In this document: positions 1,317 to 29,631 of the stretch, one piece after another
Numbering within the stretch: the stretch's first letter is position 1
How the letters are laid out: each line of letters opens with the position of its first letter
Origin: Prolixibacteraceae bacterium
GTDB lineage: Bacteria; Bacteroidota; Bacteroidia; Bacteroidales; Prolixibacteraceae
Direction of reading: 5' to 3'
DNA: 37,476 nucleotides
Assembly (NCBI GenBank): GCA_019459525.1
Contig: JAIBEY010000064.1
Location: 1-37,476 of the forward strand
The notes under the pieces: model-generated
Database searches by the model: none
What the model was told of the DNA's origin: nothing
The model's input: only the letters and a program-made list of their open reading frames with translations
Made by a program: the position numbers and the translations under genes

Positions 1317-2732
1317 CTACAAAATGCGTTTTTCAAGCAGCACAACATTTTCCACATGGTGCGTGTGCGGGAACATATCAACGGGTTGAATGCGGGTAAC
1401 TTTGTAGAATTCATCCATCAAAGCCAGATCGCGGGCCTGTGTAGCCGGGTTGCAGCTTACATAAACCACTTTTTCGGGAGCAGCTTCCAGAATAGTTTTT
1501 ACTACATCTTCGTCCATTCCGGCGCGCGGTGGATCGGTAATAATTACATTCGGTTTTCCATTTTTAGCTATAAAATCACTGGTCAGAATTTTCTTCATGT
1601 CACCGGCAAAAAAGCTGGTGTTCGTAATTTCGTTGAGTTCCGAATTCACATGTGCATCTTCAATAGCTTCAGGAACGTATTCAATACCTACTACTTTTTG
1701 CACATTTCGGGCAATAAAATTGGCGATGGTTCCGGTTCCGGTGTATAAATCGTAAACCACTTCGTTGCCTTTTAATCCGGCAAATTCGCGGGCTACTTTG
1801 TACAACTCGTAAGCCTGTTCGGAGTTGGTCTGGTAAAAACTTTTTGGTCCGATCTTAAATTTCAGGCCTTCCATTTCTTCCAGAATATGGTCGTTCCCTT
1901 TGTAAACCATTATTTCCTGATCCTGAATGGTATCATTCCCTTTTCCGTTGATTACATACATTAGTGAAGTAATCTGTGGAAACTCTGCAGCGATGGCCGC
2001 CAATAGCCTTTCGCGATTTTCAGTTTGCTCGCTATAGAAGCAAACAATCAGCATCAAATCGCCGGTAGTCGAGCTGCGGACAATGATGTTCCGAAGTAAA
2101 CCGGCCTGAATACGCCTGTCAAAAAATTCGAGTCCGTTTTCGTCAGCATAATTCTTTATAAAGTTTCGGATTTGGTTTGACGGGTCGCCCTGCAGCCAGC
2201 ATTTGTTGATGTTGATAATTTTATCGAACATACCCGGAACATGAAATCCCAACGCATTCACGTTGATGTCTTCCATGTCGGTACCTATTTCTTCATGAGT
2301 CAACCAGCGTTTGTTCGAGAATCCAAATTCGAGTTTATTGCGGTAATAAGTTGTTTTTGCAGAACCCAGAATCGTCGTAATTTCGGGCAGTTCAATACGC
2401 CCTATGCGCCGAAGCTGATCTGCCACCTGTTTTTGCTTGTAGTAAAGCTGTTTTTCGTAAGGAAGAAACTGCCATTTGCAACCGCCGCAAATCTCAAAAT
2501 GTTCGCAAAAAGCCGGAACACGGTCGGGCGATTCGGTAATCACGCGGGTTACCCTCGCTTCCATGTATTTTGTGCGTTTTTTAGTCACCTGCAAATCAAC
2601 CACATCGCCTGGAATAACGTGCGTAGTAAATACTACCACATCGTCAACACGTGCAATTGCTTTTCCTTCGGCACCAATATCGGTAATGGTTACACCCTGT
2701 AAAAATGGCTTATTTTTCTTGCCTCTTCCCAT
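1317..2732 (-). CDS. rlmD: 23S rRNA (uracil-C5)-methyltransferase, RlmD/RumA family
   Basis: A 471-residue SAM-dependent RNA m5U methyltransferase. An N-terminal TRAM domain (about residues 8-65) is followed by the Fe-S cysteines C76, C82 and C85 (CEHFEICGGC) and a fourth candidate, C178. The methyltransferase core has YDLYTGTGTIANF (SAM binding), DPPRAGMD, and the catalytic Cys in YVSCNPATQARDL. Family enzymes methylate U1939 (RlmD) and in some lineages U747 too; which site is used here cannot be told from sequence. The start at 2732 (MGRGKKNKPF) was chosen over an in-frame Met 13 codons upstream because the extension looks non-family. A weak hairpin follows the stop. Confidence 0.92.
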   Translation of the reverse strand: MGRGKKNKPFLQGVTITDIGAEGKAIARVDDVVVFTTHVIPGDVVDLQVTKKRTKYMEARVTRVITESPDRVPAFCEHFEICGGCKWQFLPYEKQLYYKQKQVADQLRRIGRIELPEITTILGSAKTTYYRNKLEFGFSNKRWLTHEEIGTDMEDINVNALGFHVPGMFDKIININKCWLQGDPSNQIRNFIKNYADENGLEFFDRRIQAGLLRNIIVRSSTTGDLMLIVCFYSEQTENRERLLAAIAAEFPQITSLMYVINGKGNDTIQDQEIMVYKGNDHILEEMEGLKFKIGPKSFYQTNSEQAYELYKVAREFAGLKGNEVVYDLYTGTGTIANFIARNVQKVVGIEYVPEAIEDAHVNSELNEITNTSFFAGDMKKILTSDFIAKNGKPNVIITDPPRAGMDEDVVKTILEAAPEKVVYVSCNPATQARDLALMDEFYKVTRIQPVDMFPHTHHVENVVLLEKRIL

Positions 2733-2921
2733 GATTTTCAAATTTGAGGCAAAAGTAATCAAATCGTGCAAACAACAGGAGGCGAAAAAAGAACATCAAC
2801 AAAATATGAACTTCTTCTCCAGAAACACTTAGCGTAATAAAAACAGAAAGACTCCCTTTTCTAATCCGAAATATTTATCTTCGAAACAGATTAACCCAAA
2901 CAACAAACTAAACCACGCATG
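2733..2921. other. Divergent intergenic region between rlmD and the propeller gene
   Basis: This is the left part of a 279-bp divergent gap that ends in leader copy A (2922-3011). TATCTTCG at 2876-2883 resembles the Bacteroidota -7 box TAnnTTTG with one mismatch and could drive the plus-strand gene. No RNA gene or terminator was recognised. Confidence 0.4.
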
Positions 2922-3011
2922 ATGAAACGAGCCATGAGCAGACCTTTCTCACACACGAGGATGACTGGTTGGCGAGTTCCATATGGCAATTAAAAAACAA
3001 ATTATAGACAT
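2922..3011 (+). promoter_or_regulatory. Conserved structured leader, copy A
   Basis: 5' arm ATGAAACGAGC (2922-2932), variable hairpin region of 39 nt, 3' arm GCGAGTTCCAT (2972-2982), then an A-rich tract ending at the ATG. The arms pair as ATGAAA/TTCCAT (one A.C mismatch), then C-G, tandem G.A and A.G, then G-C and C-G. The pairing extends into the variable part as CA/TG. Homologous copies are at 27785-27878 (+) and 26533-26445 (-). Sequence and pairing are seen directly; function as a regulatory RNA is inference. Confidence 0.65.
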
Positions 3012-4541
3012 ATGAAACAATCTTTAATTTTGCTTTTCTGGATGCTGTCCATCAGTTCATTTGCCCAAAAACCTATTGGTATCTTTCAAACCAGCAAAGA
3101 TATTGGTTCTCCAAAACTTGCAAGTTCTGCCACTTACGACCAAAGTACACAAACCTACACCATTAGCGGTGCCGGATACAACATCTGGTTTGAGCGTGAT
3201 GAATTTAACTACTTGTACAACAGACTAAAAGCTGACTTTATCCTGACTGCCAACTTTGCATTTGAAGGTGCCGGAACTGACCTGCACCGCAAAATAGGCT
3301 GGATGGTTCGTGCTTCTGAAGATGCCAATGCGGTACATACATCGGCAGTTTTGCACGGCGATGGATTGACCGTTTTACAATGGCGAGTGCTGCGCGGTGC
3401 ATTTATGCGCGATCCGGAAGATGAAATTTTTGCACCAAAACCCAACTATACCATCCTCCAGGTGGAGCGTTCAGGCCAGACTATTACTTTGAGGGCAGCT
3501 CATCCGGGCGAACCACTGCAAGTTATAGGCAGCCAGATAATGAACGAACTTCCGGAAGAAGTGCTCGCTGGCTTATTTATATGCTCACACAATCCGGATG
3601 TGGTGGAAACCGCTAAAATCTGGAATGTGCGAATAGATCAGCCTGTTGCTGATTCGTATAATCCAAACAAAGAAGGATGGCTCGGTTGCCGTCTGGAAAC
3701 AATGAACGTGTTCGACGGCAAACGCAAAGTAATTCTGGAAAAGGATGGACGTTTTGAGGCGCCAAACTGGATGCCTGACGGGAAAAAATTACTCTTCAAC
3801 ATGGATGGAGGTATTTACAAAATTCCGGTGGAAGGTGGTGAACTTGAAAAGCTGAATACCGGAAATGCTAACCGCAACAACAACGACCATGTCATTTCAT
3901 TCGATGGAAAAATGTTGGGAATCAGCAGTCATCGTGAGGGCTTGAATGGCGGCGGATCGACCGTTTATGTGTTACCTATTGAAGGTGGAACCCCGCAACT
4001 GGTTACCGAAGATACACCCTCTTACCTGCACGGCTGGGCTCCAAATAATAAAGAGGTTGTTTATGTGGCACAACGCAACGGAAGCAGTGTTTACAACATT
4101 TATAAAAATTCGATTAAAGGCGGAAACGAAGTGGCATTAACCAAGAATAACCCTAAAGAACATGTGGATGGATGCGAATATTCGCCCGACGGCAAATACA
4201 TTTACTACAACGGAAGCCAATCCGGAACGATGCAACTGTGGCGTATGAAACCCGATGGAACAGAAAAAGAACAGCTCACTTTCGACCAATACAACAACTG
4301 GTTTCCGCACATTTCGCCTGACGGAAAATGGATTGCGTTTATCTCTTTTGAAGAAGATATTGAATTCAACTCACATCCTTCCTACAAACGGGTAATGCTC
4401 CGGCTGATGCCCGTTTCAGGTGGCGCCCCCAAAGTAATTGCTTACCTGTATGGCGGGCAAGGAACCATTAATGTACCCTCCTGGTCGCCCGACAGCAAAA
4501 ATATTGCCTTTGTAAGCAACTCCGGAAAGAATAAGCCATAA
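3012..4541 (+). CDS. Secreted TolB-like (PD40) beta-propeller protein
   Basis: A 509-residue protein with a Sec signal peptide (about residues 1-18, ending SSFAQ). Residues about 20-210 look like a beta-sandwich of the concanavalin/laminin-G type (IGWMVRASED, VLQWR). The rest carries PD40/TolB blades with the recurring pattern APNWMPDGKKLLF, CEYSPDGKYIYYN, HISPDGKWIAF and SWSPDSKNIAFVS. TolB-like propellers usually bind protein or glycan partners; this one is not TolB itself because no Tol-Pal genes are nearby and the N-terminal domain differs. It is monocistronic, preceded by leader copy A and followed by a strong terminator. Its substrate is unknown. Confidence 0.85.
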   Translation: MKQSLILLFWMLSISSFAQKPIGIFQTSKDIGSPKLASSATYDQSTQTYTISGAGYNIWFERDEFNYLYNRLKADFILTANFAFEGAGTDLHRKIGWMVRASEDANAVHTSAVLHGDGLTVLQWRVLRGAFMRDPEDEIFAPKPNYTILQVERSGQTITLRAAHPGEPLQVIGSQIMNELPEEVLAGLFICSHNPDVVETAKIWNVRIDQPVADSYNPNKEGWLGCRLETMNVFDGKRKVILEKDGRFEAPNWMPDGKKLLFNMDGGIYKIPVEGGELEKLNTGNANRNNNDHVISFDGKMLGISSHREGLNGGGSTVYVLPIEGGTPQLVTEDTPSYLHGWAPNNKEVVYVAQRNGSSVYNIYKNSIKGGNEVALTKNNPKEHVDGCEYSPDGKYIYYNGSQSGTMQLWRMKPDGTEKEQLTFDQYNNWFPHISPDGKWIAFISFEEDIEFNSHPSYKRVMLRLMPVSGGAPKVIAYLYGGQGTINVPSWSPDSKNIAFVSNSGKNKP

Positions 4542-25616: not shown

Positions 25617-26444
25617 CTAGCGGATTCTGATTTCTTTGGTTTTATCGCCAATGGTTAGCGTAGCTTTGTTGTCGCATTCACCATTTCCGAAGTCGATGGT
25701 CCAGCTTTTGTCGTTACCGGAAGTAAATGAAACGATTCCACTTACGATATGGTGGCAGGTAGTCTTAAAAACCAGCGGATTTTCTGCCGCAACAATTTTG
25801 GTTACTTTAACTCCTGAAACCCTTGTAAATTCAACTGTTCCACAGCTTACTGCCTGGTTATCTTAGCGGTTTGACAGGGTGTTACGCTGGTACTGGCGGG
25901 TTAGGTTTGCAACCCGGGTCGCTTTTCCTTCCCCATCAGGAAAAGTAATGGTGATATTCTCCTTGATTACTGCGGTGCGGATGTTGTTTTCCTGATCTTT
26001 CGTAATGGTTTTGGTTACGCTTCCTTCGATCTTTTTACCGTCAACAAAGTAGTTGTCGAATGATTTATCCCTGACAGACGGAAATGTGGTAAAAGAGGCC
26101 GAAGTCACAACGATTTTCCCTGAACGAACTTTTCCGTCTTTTCCGGTGCAGGCAGTTCCAAAATCGATGGTCATAACCTGTGGTGTTGCTGTTTTGTTGA
26201 CTGTAATTACCGGACAATCGCTAAGGTAAAAAGAACCTTCTGTACTGGCAGATTTGAGTGAGCCGAAGTTTATATCCAGAGCTTCATCAACCATAAGATC
26301 AACATCTGCACCCATTTCTTCAGCTTGTGTTTCCTGCTGACTTAATTGAATCTCATCAAAAACGGCGGCAACTTCATCTTTCTGGCATGAATGGAATGCC
26401 AGATACATCAGGCTTAAAGCGAAAATCATTTTTAATCGTTTCAT
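25617..26444 (-). pseudogene. Lipoprotein gene interrupted by an in-frame TAA
   Basis: The first part, 26444-25866, encodes 193 residues: a lipoprotein-like signal (LMYLAFHSC, then QKDE) and a beta-rich domain with CPVITVN and MTIDFGTACTGKDGKVRSG. It ends at TAA 25863-25865. The same frame then stays open for 81 codons to TAG 25617-25619, reading CGTVEFTRVSG, TCHHIVSGIVSFTSG, WTIDFGNGECDNKATL and a final KEIRIR. The second part repeats the first part's IDFG..C module and matches the usual C-terminal domain of this kind of Bacteroidota lipoprotein as I remember it. A nonsense change, readthrough or a sequencing error are the options. The gene starts at leader copy C. Confidence 0.8.
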
Positions 26445-26533
26445 ACGTGAATAATTTGTTTGTTTAATTGTCGTATGGAACTCGCATGTCGATATTTTCA
26501 TATTAATGTAAGTATTTTACATGCTCGTTTCAT
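26445..26533 (-). promoter_or_regulatory. Conserved structured leader, copy C
   Basis: On the minus strand: 5' arm ATGAAACGAGC (26533-26523), 37 nt of variable sequence with a TGTAA...TTACA hairpin, 3' arm GCGAGTTCCAT (26485-26475), then CAATTAAACAAACAAATTAT running to the ATG at 26444. The pairing extends into the variable part as ATGT/ACAT, different from copies A and B in sequence but still paired. Confidence 0.65.
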
Positions 26534-26720
26534 AAGGCAAAATTTTTAGAAATTAAATTGATTACCCTTAAGAAGCGGTTGTTATCGAAAAGTTAAATCG
26601 GAAGATGATTTTTTTTGCGAAAAGGAAAAATACATTTTCTGAAAATAATCCATTGGTGGATTTAACTTTCAGCTACTTTTAACATCCAAAGCGTAAACCG
26701 GTCATTCCTGAATCTGATTA
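26534..26720 (+). promoter_or_regulatory. Divergent promoter region of the sigma-factor operon
   Basis: A TTG at 26653-26655, an 18-nt spacer and TACTTTTA at 26674-26681 (one mismatch to TAnnTTTG) form a candidate promoter 39 nt before the sigma-factor ATG. The rest of the region is AT-rich with no RNA gene seen. It is shared with the divergent broken lipoprotein gene. Confidence 0.4.
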
Positions 26721-27269
26721 ATGAACGAAACGTCTGACGCATATTTGTTTTCCCTTATCAAAAAACCTGCTTCGAAAGATAAAGGCTTTTTGCAACTGAT
26801 GGATATCTATAAAAAGCCACTTTACTGGCATATCCGGAGGTTGGTGGTATCGCACGAAGATGCGGAAGATATTTTGCAGGAAACGTTTATTAATGTTTAC
26901 CGCTTTGCCGATTCGTTTAAAGGCGAAAGCAAAGTGTTTACCTGGCTGTACCGCATTGCAACCAACGAATGCACCAAACATTTCAGGAAAAATAAAAACT
27001 GGTTGAAAAATGCGGAGTTGATTACCGACAAAATGATGAGTGATCTTTCCGGAAATGATTCTGACGACAGCGAAGCCATGCTGATAAAGTTTCAGCAGGC
27101 AATACTGAAACTTCCGGAGAAACAACGGATGGTTTTTAACCTGCGGTACTACGACGAACTAAGTTACGAGGAAATCAGCCAGATTCTGGATTCTTCGGTG
27201 AATACGCTGAAAACGAATTATCACTATGCCTCCGAAAAAATCAGGCAATATTTGATTGAACAAGCTTAA
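26721..27269 (+). CDS. ECF sigma-70 family RNA polymerase sigma factor
   Basis: A 182-residue sigma factor. Region 2 spans about 20-95 (LMDIYKKPLYWHIRRLV, DAEDILQETFINVYR, VFTWLYRIATNECTKHFRK) and region 4 about 120-178 (LPEKQRMVFNLRYYDELSYE, EISQILDSSVNTLKTNYHYA). There is no region 3, as in ECF factors. It probably directs a small envelope-response regulon. The one-TM protein 2 nt downstream is the likely anti-sigma and the Spy-like protein a likely output or sensor. Autoregulation is usual for the family but not shown here. Confidence 0.94.
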   Translation: MNETSDAYLFSLIKKPASKDKGFLQLMDIYKKPLYWHIRRLVVSHEDAEDILQETFINVYRFADSFKGESKVFTWLYRIATNECTKHFRKNKNWLKNAELITDKMMSDLSGNDSDDSEAMLIKFQQAILKLPEKQRMVFNLRYYDELSYEEISQILDSSVNTLKTNYHYASEKIRQYLIEQA

Positions 27270-27271
27270 CA

Positions 27272-27766
27272 ATGAACAAAGACATCAACGATATGAAGCA
27301 ACCGGATGAATTTCCAGGAATAGGTAAAAAATTACCTTACAGTGAGCCTGTCGGATTTTTTGAGAGGTTTTCGGAAAAAACACTTGAGCAGGCAAAACTC
27401 AGGGAGCAAAATCGCAAAAGAAGTTTGGTTCTCTGGCGCACGGTGGCGGTGGCTGCATCCGTTTCAGCCTTAGCGTTGCTTGGTTATTTTATGTTTGAAC
27501 CGGAATTGCCGGAATCACCCCAGATTGTTCAGGAAAAACAACCGGTTGAACAACCGTTAATTAAAGAACCGGAAATTGCAAAACAACCTGAAATCGGGAC
27601 CGAAATCAAGAAAATGGCTACTGAAAAAGTGCCGGAGAAGTTTATAGCAGAAGAAAAGGACATGGAGGAGATAGGCGATGTTTTAGCCGACCTGTCTGAC
27701 GAAGAATTGCAGCAATTGGCCGCAATGTACAAAGCTGATCCTTTTATTAGCGAATCAGAACAATAA
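27272..27766 (+). CDS. Single-TM protein, putative anti-sigma factor
   Basis: A 164-residue protein with a cytoplasmic N-terminus (about 1-45, FPGIGKKLPYSEPVGFFERF), one membrane segment (about 52-69, TVAVAASVSALALLGYFM), and a Pro/Glu/Lys-rich periplasmic tail ending in an acidic helix (DVLADLSDEELQQLAAMY). No zinc HxxxCxxC motif is present. Position 2 nt after the ECF sigma gene and this topology suggest an anti-sigma factor or its membrane partner; this is inference from context. Starts at MNKDIND or the Met at residue 8 are both possible. Confidence 0.75.
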   Translation: MNKDINDMKQPDEFPGIGKKLPYSEPVGFFERFSEKTLEQAKLREQNRKRSLVLWRTVAVAASVSALALLGYFMFEPELPESPQIVQEKQPVEQPLIKEPEIAKQPEIGTEIKKMATEKVPEKFIAEEKDMEEIGDVLADLSDEELQQLAAMYKADPFISESEQ

Positions 27767-27784
27767 CTGTTAAAATTAATCGAG

Positions 27785-27878
27785 ATGAAATGAGCATGAT
27801 TCTCGGAAACATCAACAGTAATGAATGTTTCCTATCATGCGAATTCCATTCGACAACTAAAAAACAAATTATACACGA
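27785..27878 (+). promoter_or_regulatory. Conserved structured leader, copy B
   Basis: 5' arm ATGAAATGAGC (27785-27795), 43 nt of variable sequence, 3' arm GCGAATTCCAT (27839-27849), then CAACTAAAAAACAAATTAT to the ATG. Here the C-G pair of copies A and C is T-A. The stem extends through ATGAT/ATCAT, and an inner hairpin GGAAACAT (27805-27812) / ATGTTTCC (27825-27832) follows. The copy starts 18 nt after the stop of the upstream operon gene, with no recognisable promoter between. Confidence 0.7.
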
Positions 27879-28334
27879 ATGAAAACGATACTATCAACCT
27901 TACTTTTAGTTTTTACGCTGTGCATTAGTTTTAGTGCAGAATTGCAGAATTCCGATCGTTTCCCAAGACTGCGAGAAAGGATTGTCCAAGCAAAACTACG
28001 CGAAATCAGGCTTGAATTGAATCTTGATCAGGCTACTTTTGATCGGTTTAGACCGGTTTACCTAAGGTATGAGAGAGAAGGTTCTGTCATTGACTTTAAA
28101 GATTTGGCCAGGCTGATGAAGGTTGATGCAGACAGTTTATCGTCAGAAGAAGCCGATAGATTGATTATTAGTCAGTTGGAGACGTCGAAAAAACTAATTC
28201 ACATCCGCGAAAAATACTACAAGGAATTCAGGACAGTAATTACTCCGCAGCAGATCATTAAACTTTACCAGACGGAGGCCGAGTTGCGCAAAAAAGTATT
28301 GCAGGAAATGAAAAGACGAATGATGAGCCGGTAA
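27879..28334 (+). CDS. Spy/CpxP-like periplasmic helical protein
   Basis: A 151-residue protein with a Sec signal peptide (cleavage near residue 20, SFSAE). The mature part is all helix and highly charged, with LTxxQ-like segments LNLDQATFDRFRPVYLRYE and ITPQQIIKLYQTEAELRKKV, and a basic end KRRMMSR. This is the Spy/CpxP-like pattern of periplasmic chaperones and stress sensors. It is third in the sigma/anti-sigma operon, suggesting an envelope-stress circuit. Identity is by pattern and context; sequence similarity to Spy itself is low. Confidence 0.72.
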   Translation: MKTILSTLLLVFTLCISFSAELQNSDRFPRLRERIVQAKLREIRLELNLDQATFDRFRPVYLRYEREGSVIDFKDLARLMKVDADSLSSEEADRLIISQLETSKKLIHIREKYYKEFRTVITPQQIIKLYQTEAELRKKVLQEMKRRMMSR

Positions 28335-28374
28335 ATTGCTACTTTAGTCGTATCAATTCACTAGTCCTGAAATT

Positions 28375-29559
28375 ATGTCCAAGCCCAATTCGCCCGGCAT
28401 CGAAAAGAACATGATTATTATTTTTGGTGTCACGCTCATCGCCGTTATGGGAATTGCCAGTATTACCCCGGCTTTTCCCGGAATTATTAAATATTTCGGC
28501 ATTTCGACCCAGCAAGTGGGCTGGCTGATTGCAGCTTTCACGCTTCCCGGAATATTTTTAACTCCCGTTTCCGGAATTCTGGCCGATCGTTTGGGGCGTA
28601 AACTCGTGCTGGTTCCTTCGCTTTTTATATTCGGGATAGCCGGTTTTCTCTGTTCTTTTATGCGCGATTTTCATTCGCTGCTGGCCCTTTTATTTATTGA
28701 AGGTATTGGAGCTGCCGGGCTTTCGAGCATCAACATTACCCTGATCGGCGATTTATATTCAGGCGAAAAGCGAACGGCGCTGATGGGCTACAATGCCAGT
28801 ATTTTAAGTATCGGAACGGCGGCTTACCCGGCGTTGGGCGGGTTTATCGCCGCTTTCGGGTGGCAATACATTTTTTACCTTCCACTTCTTGCTCTTCCGT
28901 TGGGCATCTTCGTCATTTTTGGCCTGAATAATCCTGAACCCAAAGACCATCAGGGAATTGGCGAGTATTTCCGTCGCATCTGGAAAAACATCAATCAGCG
29001 AAGTGTCTGGGGACTGTTTCTGGTCAATATGTTGGTATTTGTTCTGCTTTACGGTTCTTACCTTACCTATTTCCCGATTTTGCTTTCCGAGCGATTACAG
29101 GCAACTTCAGTTCATATTGGCCTGATGATGTCTATCATGTCACTGGTTACAGCCGCCACCTCTTCGCAATTGGGGCGCTTCAATAAACGGTTTCAATCTA
29201 AAACAATACTGTTGTTTGGAGCCGGGTTCTATTTTCTATCCATGCTTTCGTTGCTGGTTAGCCAGAGTTGGATACAGGTGGTTTTGTCGATCATGGTTTT
29301 TGGTCTGGGACATGGTTTGTTGATTCCTTCCATACAGAATTTGCTGGTTGGCTTTGCTTCGATCAAAGAGCGCGCAGCATTTATGTCAGTTAGCAGCATG
29401 GTTCTTCGCATTGGTCAAACCATTGGCCCATTGCTGATTGGTGTATTTTATGCTATCGGAAGCCTGCAAGCTTCGTTTATTGCCGGAGCAGTTGTGGCGT
29501 TAGTGATGTTCAGTGTTATCGCGGGAATGGTGAAGAATGCAAATGAGAGTAGGCCATGA
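28375..29559 (+). CDS. MFS transporter (DHA1-type drug/metabolite exporter family)
   Basis: A 394-residue protein with 12 predicted membrane segments in two halves. The MFS loop motif GILADRLGRKLVLV lies between TM2 and TM3, and the TM5-type segment reads ILSIGTAAYPALGG. It looks like the 12-TM DHA1 group that includes Bcr/CflA-like multidrug exporters. The substrate cannot be told. It lies 40 nt downstream of the Spy-like gene on the same strand, so readthrough from the sigma operon is possible, and it ends before a strong bidirectional terminator. Confidence 0.88.
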   Translation: MSKPNSPGIEKNMIIIFGVTLIAVMGIASITPAFPGIIKYFGISTQQVGWLIAAFTLPGIFLTPVSGILADRLGRKLVLVPSLFIFGIAGFLCSFMRDFHSLLALLFIEGIGAAGLSSINITLIGDLYSGEKRTALMGYNASILSIGTAAYPALGGFIAAFGWQYIFYLPLLALPLGIFVIFGLNNPEPKDHQGIGEYFRRIWKNINQRSVWGLFLVNMLVFVLLYGSYLTYFPILLSERLQATSVHIGLMMSIMSLVTAATSSQLGRFNKRFQSKTILLFGAGFYFLSMLSLLVSQSWIQVVLSIMVFGLGHGLLIPSIQNLLVGFASIKERAAFMSVSSMVLRIGQTIGPLLIGVFYAIGSLQASFIAGAVVALVMFSVIAGMVKNANESRP

Positions 29560-29631
29560 AATGATCCTGAAATAAATTCAGGCTGACAGAGTGCATGCCC
29601 TTTTGGTTAAGTGGTGCTCGAAGCGATATAC

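Follow-up and report, generated by a model that had tools for sequence, protein, structure and literature searches.

In IS200/IS605 elements, a guide of four nucleotides located immediately 5' of the foot of the hairpin contacts the target and the right end; a guide of this type is also found in REP sequences, as described in an excerpt of PMC6006769. According to part of the text of PMC3733652, the REP elements of RAYT bear a GTAG or CGTC tag at the foot. This tag is not universal, since a Bacteroidetes subclass displays atypical structures (same excerpt of PMC6006769).

The window, i.e., the whole stretch of 37,476 nucleotides that was analyzed (Prolixibacteraceae bacterium, contig JAIBEY010000064.1), contains three copies of a tiny (~90-base) mobile DNA element of Bacteroidota, which the first-pass annotation had described as leaders of three genes. 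The repeat is organized as ATGAAA-YGAGC-hairpin-GCGARTTCCATNNGRCAAYTAAA-A-rich-CN'N'-ATGAAA. The six bases at its right end generally serve as the first two codons of the gene that follows. Very probably, it is a non-autonomous element of ~90 bp that inserts at ATGAAA, often a gene start. The left ATGAAA would be the former start, and the right one either the end of the element or a duplicated target. The gene would thus keep its start codon, its Lys codon and its frame, and an A-rich initiation region of Bacteroidota type would be supplied.

The three copies of ~90 nt are present where they had been annotated. Their 3' half, GCGARTTCCATNNGRCAAYTAAA, searched with up to 3 mismatches, has 3 occurrences in the window vs. 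0.01 expected, a count attained in 0 of 100 shuffles; taken by itself, the 5' arm is less convincing (8 matches vs. 1.85 expected, at 1 mismatch). The limits of the unit must be corrected: it had been ended before the gene, and the conserved repeat includes the start and second codons (2922-3017, 27785-27884 and 26533-26439). Copy 1 (2922..3017, + strand) has its left ATGAAA, the putative former start codon, at 2922-2927 and its right ATGAAA at 3012-3017, where the gene 3012-4541 (+) presently starts. The 3' arm of its first stem, P1 (GCGAGTTCCAT, 2972..2982, +), pairs with 2922-2932 (ATGAAACGAGC). The final bases of this arm double as part of a second stem, P2, of which the 5' arm CATATG (2980..2985, +) has for partner CATATG at 3009-3014, containing the start codon 3012-3014. 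Copy 2 (27785..27884, +) extends from the left ATGAAA 27785-27790 to the right ATGAAA 27879-27884 and leads the gene 27879-28334 (+, 151 codons); its P2 pairs CATTCG 27847-27852 with CGAATG 27876-27881 (+). Copy 3 (26439..26533, - strand) extends from the left ATGAAA 26533-26528 to the right ATGAAA 26444-26439, at which a gene of 193 codons starts (-); its P2 pairs CATACG 26477-26472 with CGTATG 26447-26442 (-). The longest ORF of the copy 3 gene begins in frame at 26501, an ATG inside the element. Gene callers may thus misplace starts at element sites, as with 26501 in the mechanical ORF list.

The own genome (5.5 Mb) gives 52 matches to the 3' half pattern, and 0 to the reversed control. In a set of 46 of these own copies, nearest-neighbour identity has a median of 0.92 and is 0.98 at most. 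Copies recognised at both ends number 165 and come from the own genome, relatives and named public genomes (i.e., 200 core matches minus 35 lacking a left arm or a right ATG within set limits). The median unit length, counted from the left ATGAAA up to but not including the right one, is 90. ATGAAA stands at the left end of 154/165 copies, the search favouring GTGAAA among left variants since a first-base G is not penalized; at the right end, it is found in 160/165.

The unit carries two covarying stems. P1 holds in 160 unique elements as it had been annotated, i.e., with its arms, A.C mismatch, Y-R pair, tandem G.A/A.G and inner covariation. The A.C mismatch is present in 157/160 unique elements; in the tandem, G.A is found in 149/160 and A.G in 159/160. 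The Y-R pair is C-G in 132, T-A in 26 and T-G in 2. The inner pairs switch: GC (114) or CG (11) at pair 10, AT (74) or CG (69) at pair 12, AT (61) or TA (49) at pair 13. Pairing is looser inwards, standard pairs accounting for 74% at pair 13 and 67% at pair 14. The annotation of a single stem was right for P1 and missed P2 (CATNNG:CN'N'ATG), which holds the start codon itself. P2 is the only stem reported by RNAalifold when used unaided on 73 diverse copies (drawn from the 165; length 85-115, similarity under 0.88). Its NN is complementary in 143/165 copies, and its two middle pairs are changed on both sides in 38 and 14 sequences.

Covariation was assessed by pair counting on the 73 sequences. 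For the four alignable P1 pairs plus P2, 96.6% of the cells are paired vs. 86.0 in shuffled data, the covariation score is 0.291 vs. 0.104, and double-changed cells number 74 vs. 22.1; 0 of 500 shuffles reach any of these values. Further pair types are 15 vs. 12.8 (reached by 8 of 500 shuffles), and pairs changed on both sides, of which there are 4, are no more numerous than in shuffles (425 of 500 reach 4). When partners are slid out of register, at most 38% are paired. The RNA fold z values of the three window copies are −2.3, −4.1 and −2.5, and P1 and P2 are both present in all three minimum-energy folds. P2 and a P1 prolonged to the ATG compete for one CAT. In the mRNA, the new start codon is predicted to lie in the weak P2 hairpin, which may tune translation, a rather doubtful proposal at this stage.

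That the element itself is mobile appears almost certain. At empty sites, congeners keep the same flanks with one ATGAAA (a few with ATGAAG), and the joins are base-precise. The 2922 site is empty in 8 congeners (G022, G018, G003, G012, G019, G004, G014, G010), the 27785 site in 8 (G022, G007, G002, G018, G009, G013, G010, G019), the 26533 site in 10 (G022, G013, G007, G017, G010, G002, G009, G006, G018, G019) and one rlmN site in 4. Only congeners with an alignment across the junction were scored, and the counts omit L285 (own genome) and L083 (G012), both filled. At the rlmN locus, 86 bp through ATGAAA are identical between the empty G003 and the filled G000. At the rlmN site of G021, the same ATGAAA is followed by a different sequence (L307:1955-2060) which resembles a degenerate copy of the element.

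Turnover is seen with G012, a congener with a one-contig genome, which is filled at 26533 and 27785 and empty at 2922. Out of its 37 copies, 36 were compared by both flanks with the 52 own copies, the short-flank one being left out. Only 2 of these 36 comparable copies, the 26533/27785 pair, are at loci occupied here and 34 are at loci not occupied here, at a setting (blastn 1e-8 over 80 bases) that would miss more diverged flanks. Identity to G012 is 92% around this pair (26000-29600), 81% at 2500-3700 and 85% at rlmN; the shared pair may thus reflect exchange between lineages. Insertion is the simple reading and loss may also have occurred at single sites; the direction is read from the empty sites, which outnumber the filled ones. 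Copies also stack in tandem, sharing one single ATGAAA. The tandem neighbours of L339 differ in sequence, which indicates successive insertions; the L170 pair looks identical and could be a duplication. In L336, L136 and L139, other palindromic repeats split or enlarge copies of the element.

The bases around the two hexamers are informative about the target. In the left flank, A reaches 70% at −12 and at −11 (164 copies), as expected if the left ATGAAA had been a start codon. Left flanks of copies without ORF are A-rich too, to a less extent (55% at −12/−11, 29 copies). Within the element, A amounts to 96% at −12/−11, 81% at −13 and 71% at −6 (165 copies). In Flavobacterium johnsoniae, initiation is favoured by adenines at −13, −12, −6 and −3 (excerpt of PMC6847099), determinants with which the adenines of the element agree. 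Position −3 of the element is C in 95% of the 165 copies, not the favoured A. This C pairs with G in P2, thus the pairing is kept and the favoured base sacrificed.

The right ATGAAA opens an ORF of ≥60 codons in 38 of the 52 own copies, and that of the window at 27879 is one more. Other copies hit an early stop though ATGAAA is kept, which suggests that ATGAAA is part of the element. None of the 46 own copies with both ends clearly interrupts a gene. At L033, 80 codons are open upstream in frame and an N-terminus may have been cut there; at L001 and L035, it is a different frame that stays open longest across the joint. Of the 52 ATGAAA hexamers in the window, 11 qualify as ORF starts by a lenient test. 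Starts are over-represented among insertions through target choice, purging of harmful insertions, or both.

Two other functions of the unit were considered and rejected: (i) a leader peptide, the frame of the left ATG ending inside the element in 127/165 copies, overlapping the right ATGA in 28 and reading on in 10; (ii) a promoter inside the element, TAHHTTTG being found in 0/46 own copies and within 200 nt upstream in 9/46.

Further copies in related genomes, as anticipated by the first-pass annotation, do occur: with up to 3 mismatches, 37/61 relatives match, including 23/23 of the genus (lone matches at 3 mismatches may be chance, the control giving 0-2 per genome). An exact scan of named genomes matched at least 110 stretches. 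Among the matches listed (80 stretches), there are 83 matches, 72 of them with a complementary CN'N'ATG; the carriers in this list include Labilibacter (Marinilabiliales), Aquimarina (Flavobacteriales), Marivirga (Cytophagales) and Niabella (Chitinophagales), the Niabella match having a variant 5' arm. Labilibaculum, Labilibacter and Aquimarina are carriers available in culture. Two Bacillus matches in the same list have neither arm nor complement and were discarded as chance. When 247 genomes were drawn across the phylum (up to 1 mismatch), only 3 matched: the own genome and two more, each of these two having a single weak match. The element is thus abundant in the genus and patchy elsewhere. 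Plasmid and phage records gave no match to copy 1. A contig of a viral collection, only putatively viral, has a copy near its end (L325:184-281).

Covarying stems, a fixed position, a start codon held in a stem and the ORFs behind 38/52 own copies are what would be seen if the repeat were a cis-regulatory leader RNA common to a regulon, of riboswitch or protein-binding type. This origin is nevertheless most improbable: orthologous genes have empty sites, copies turn over and stack in tandem, some are not located before a gene, and the products are unrelated. Among the downstream products, 24/39 have a Pfam match (first 330 residues scanned for long products). The matches are diverse and only SusD is found twice; the others include DUF6807, kinase-PPPase, GH65, GH43, GH3, ApbE, OsmC, M48 peptidase, LacI, IspD, phosphoglycerate mutase, ABC ATPase, GldH, PIN, RlmN-type radical SAM and sodium/proton exchanger. 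A regulon was rejected on this ground. Export of the products, annotated as a shared feature, is common (hydrophobic N-terminal stretch in 26/38 downstream proteins, crude scan) and is not a rule, since IspD, RlmN-like, OsmC and LacI proteins follow copies. As had been annotated, no Rfam family corresponds: at the gathering threshold the window gives one tRNA only, and the matches of L176, L152 and L127 at E<=5 do not overlap the element. The conserved structured leader of the first-pass annotation is thus retained as a structured, covarying family and abandoned as a vertically conserved cis-regulatory leader. Its location in leaders is explained by its target, the start codon.

Concerning the way it moves, the element would travel as a folded single strand, with an enzyme supplied in trans. 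Read on the strand opposite to the gene, the order is TTTCAT / N'N'G, T-rich linker, CNNATGGAA, hairpin, TTTCAT / (slashes stand for boundaries). The TTTCAT at either boundary can pair with an internal ATGGAA adjoining the 5' side of the hairpin foot; this candidate ATGGAA:TTTCAT pairing would follow the guide logic of IS200/IS605 and REP elements. Such a guide-paired single-strand route, IS200/IS605/REP-like, is considered the most likely mechanism, unproven and put forward tentatively. Folded as DNA, this strand has z values of 0.26 for copy 1 (no better than shuffles) and of −2.8 and −2.2 for copies 2 and 3.

The enzyme was sought beside the copies. Out of 393 loci examined (some overlapping), 235 have the element, 57 have a Y1-transposase match and 0 have both. 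The Y1 loci cover all four Y1 genes of the own genome and, in fetched flanks only, a genus sample (33 loci of 139 matches plus 18 further loci). Three full-type TnpA loci (L226, L227, L248) are without element. Around Y1 (RAYT-like) genes of the genus (L112-L115, L226-L254, L342-L351), short palindromes with several unrelated sequences are seen by eye, e.g., GGTGCRGAGCACC, GGCTTTAGCC and GCCCTGAAAGGGC. No enzyme recurs as a neighbour in 192 element loci, the largest protein clusters resembling (by eye) common Bacteroidota families. An autonomous long copy was also looked for and rejected: among 36 left arms found with one pattern (G000 + G012), 3 have no nearby 3' half, of which L336 is an element split by another palindrome and two are probably fortuitous. 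A second short palindromic repeat, AACCACATAGACACATAG...CTATGTGCCTATGTGGTT, lies just upstream of many congener start codons, sometimes directly after ATGAAA (L037:1906-1985; L315-L324; L298, L308).

These data bear on three other readings. One is a REP-type repeat moved by a resident Y1 (HUH) transposase of the RAYT/IS200 superfamily. The mismatched hairpin and the guide-like ATGGAA 5' of its foot agree with it, as do Y1_Tnp matches in 23/23 genus genomes and Y1 genes in 10/10 chosen element-bearing genomes, which make a role in trans possible. It is unlikely all the same, given that the fetched flanks of the own four Y1 genes and of the genus sample have no copy, that the flanks inspected (30/33 loci and 6 genes) show other short palindromes as judged by eye, and that TnpB (PF07282) is found in 0/23 genus genomes. 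Another recombinase (tyrosine recombinase or transposase), duplicating or exchanging a 6-bp ATGAAA core, would explain why ATGAAA borders the element on either side and is single in the empty site, a pattern that fits target duplication and core exchange equally. Its probability is low: the alignment shows no terminal inverted repeats, a duplicated target is not expected to be one fixed hexamer in 154/165 copies, and no recurrent enzyme stands beside the copies. This last point also counts against an element acting at the RNA level, i.e., a leader excised, reversed into other ATGAAA sites and copied into DNA. The copies are sense-oriented in leaders, each ATGAAA end has a pairing partner in the internal TTCCAT and the RNA folds exceed shuffles, all in its favour; ~90 nt is far below the size of the self-splicing introns described, and we judge this reading very improbable.

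Keeping to guide pairing, a broader and slightly more speculative proposal is a class of mobile element present in several Bacteroidota orders, of which the internal guide would pair with ATGAAA to find start codons, the host start and initiation region being replaced, with a dedicated enzyme. If true, the same start-codon hairpin has been installed before dozens of unrelated genes, i.e., a ready substrate for translational control. The repeat would enter a gene where its own design makes the insertion harmless, rebuilding what was hit. The element also points to an enzyme that genetics can seek. Structured 5' leaders can be produced in large numbers by mobile DNA, and a covarying «leader RNA» is then explained without a regulon. 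This is a warning for RNA-motif discovery: a motif that covaries and keeps a fixed position in front of genes is not necessarily a regulatory RNA.

No start-codon-targeted element of this kind was found in the open-licence PMC literature, subscription papers and preprints being outside its scope. The comparison with described systems is as follows. Some integrating elements rebuild the tRNA gene they enter; the present element is alike in that its target is inside a gene and function is restored by the element's own end, and differs in that the start codons of many genes are hit, with neither integrase nor cargo. Structured leader RNAs (Rfam Cis-reg type) also have covarying stems upstream of genes and a start codon in a stem; in contrast, the element has no Rfam match, is absent at orthologous genes and has no common downstream function. 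Unlike a MITE of a cut-and-paste transposase, it has no terminal inverted repeats visible at the aligned unit ends.

The other two systems compared are the families with guides. Like IS200/IS605 and their non-autonomous derivatives, the element has a fixed short target, precise empty sites and boundaries able to pair with a candidate internal guide, ATGAAA on both sides making a duplicated target indistinguishable from an element-borne end. It differs from them by one hairpin instead of two ends, by Y1 genes not associated with copies, and by no parent element or TnpB in the genus. With REP/BIME and TnpA-REP (RAYT), it shares its short size, many copies, an imperfect hairpin, guide-like bases 5' of the foot and an intergenic location. 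It differs from REP/BIME in that (i) it is ~90 bp long, inserted at and flanked by ATGAAA start codons in one orientation, and supplies the initiation region; (ii) it has no linked transposase (0/57 Y1 loci carry it); (iii) its foot reads ATGGAAYTCGC (alignment of 73 copies), without a GTAG or CGTC tag. Because the linkage and tag tests failed and no parent IS200/IS605 element was found, it is filed under neither REP nor IS200/IS605. The element is a short non-autonomous mobile repeat, i.e., a known kind, in a new form.
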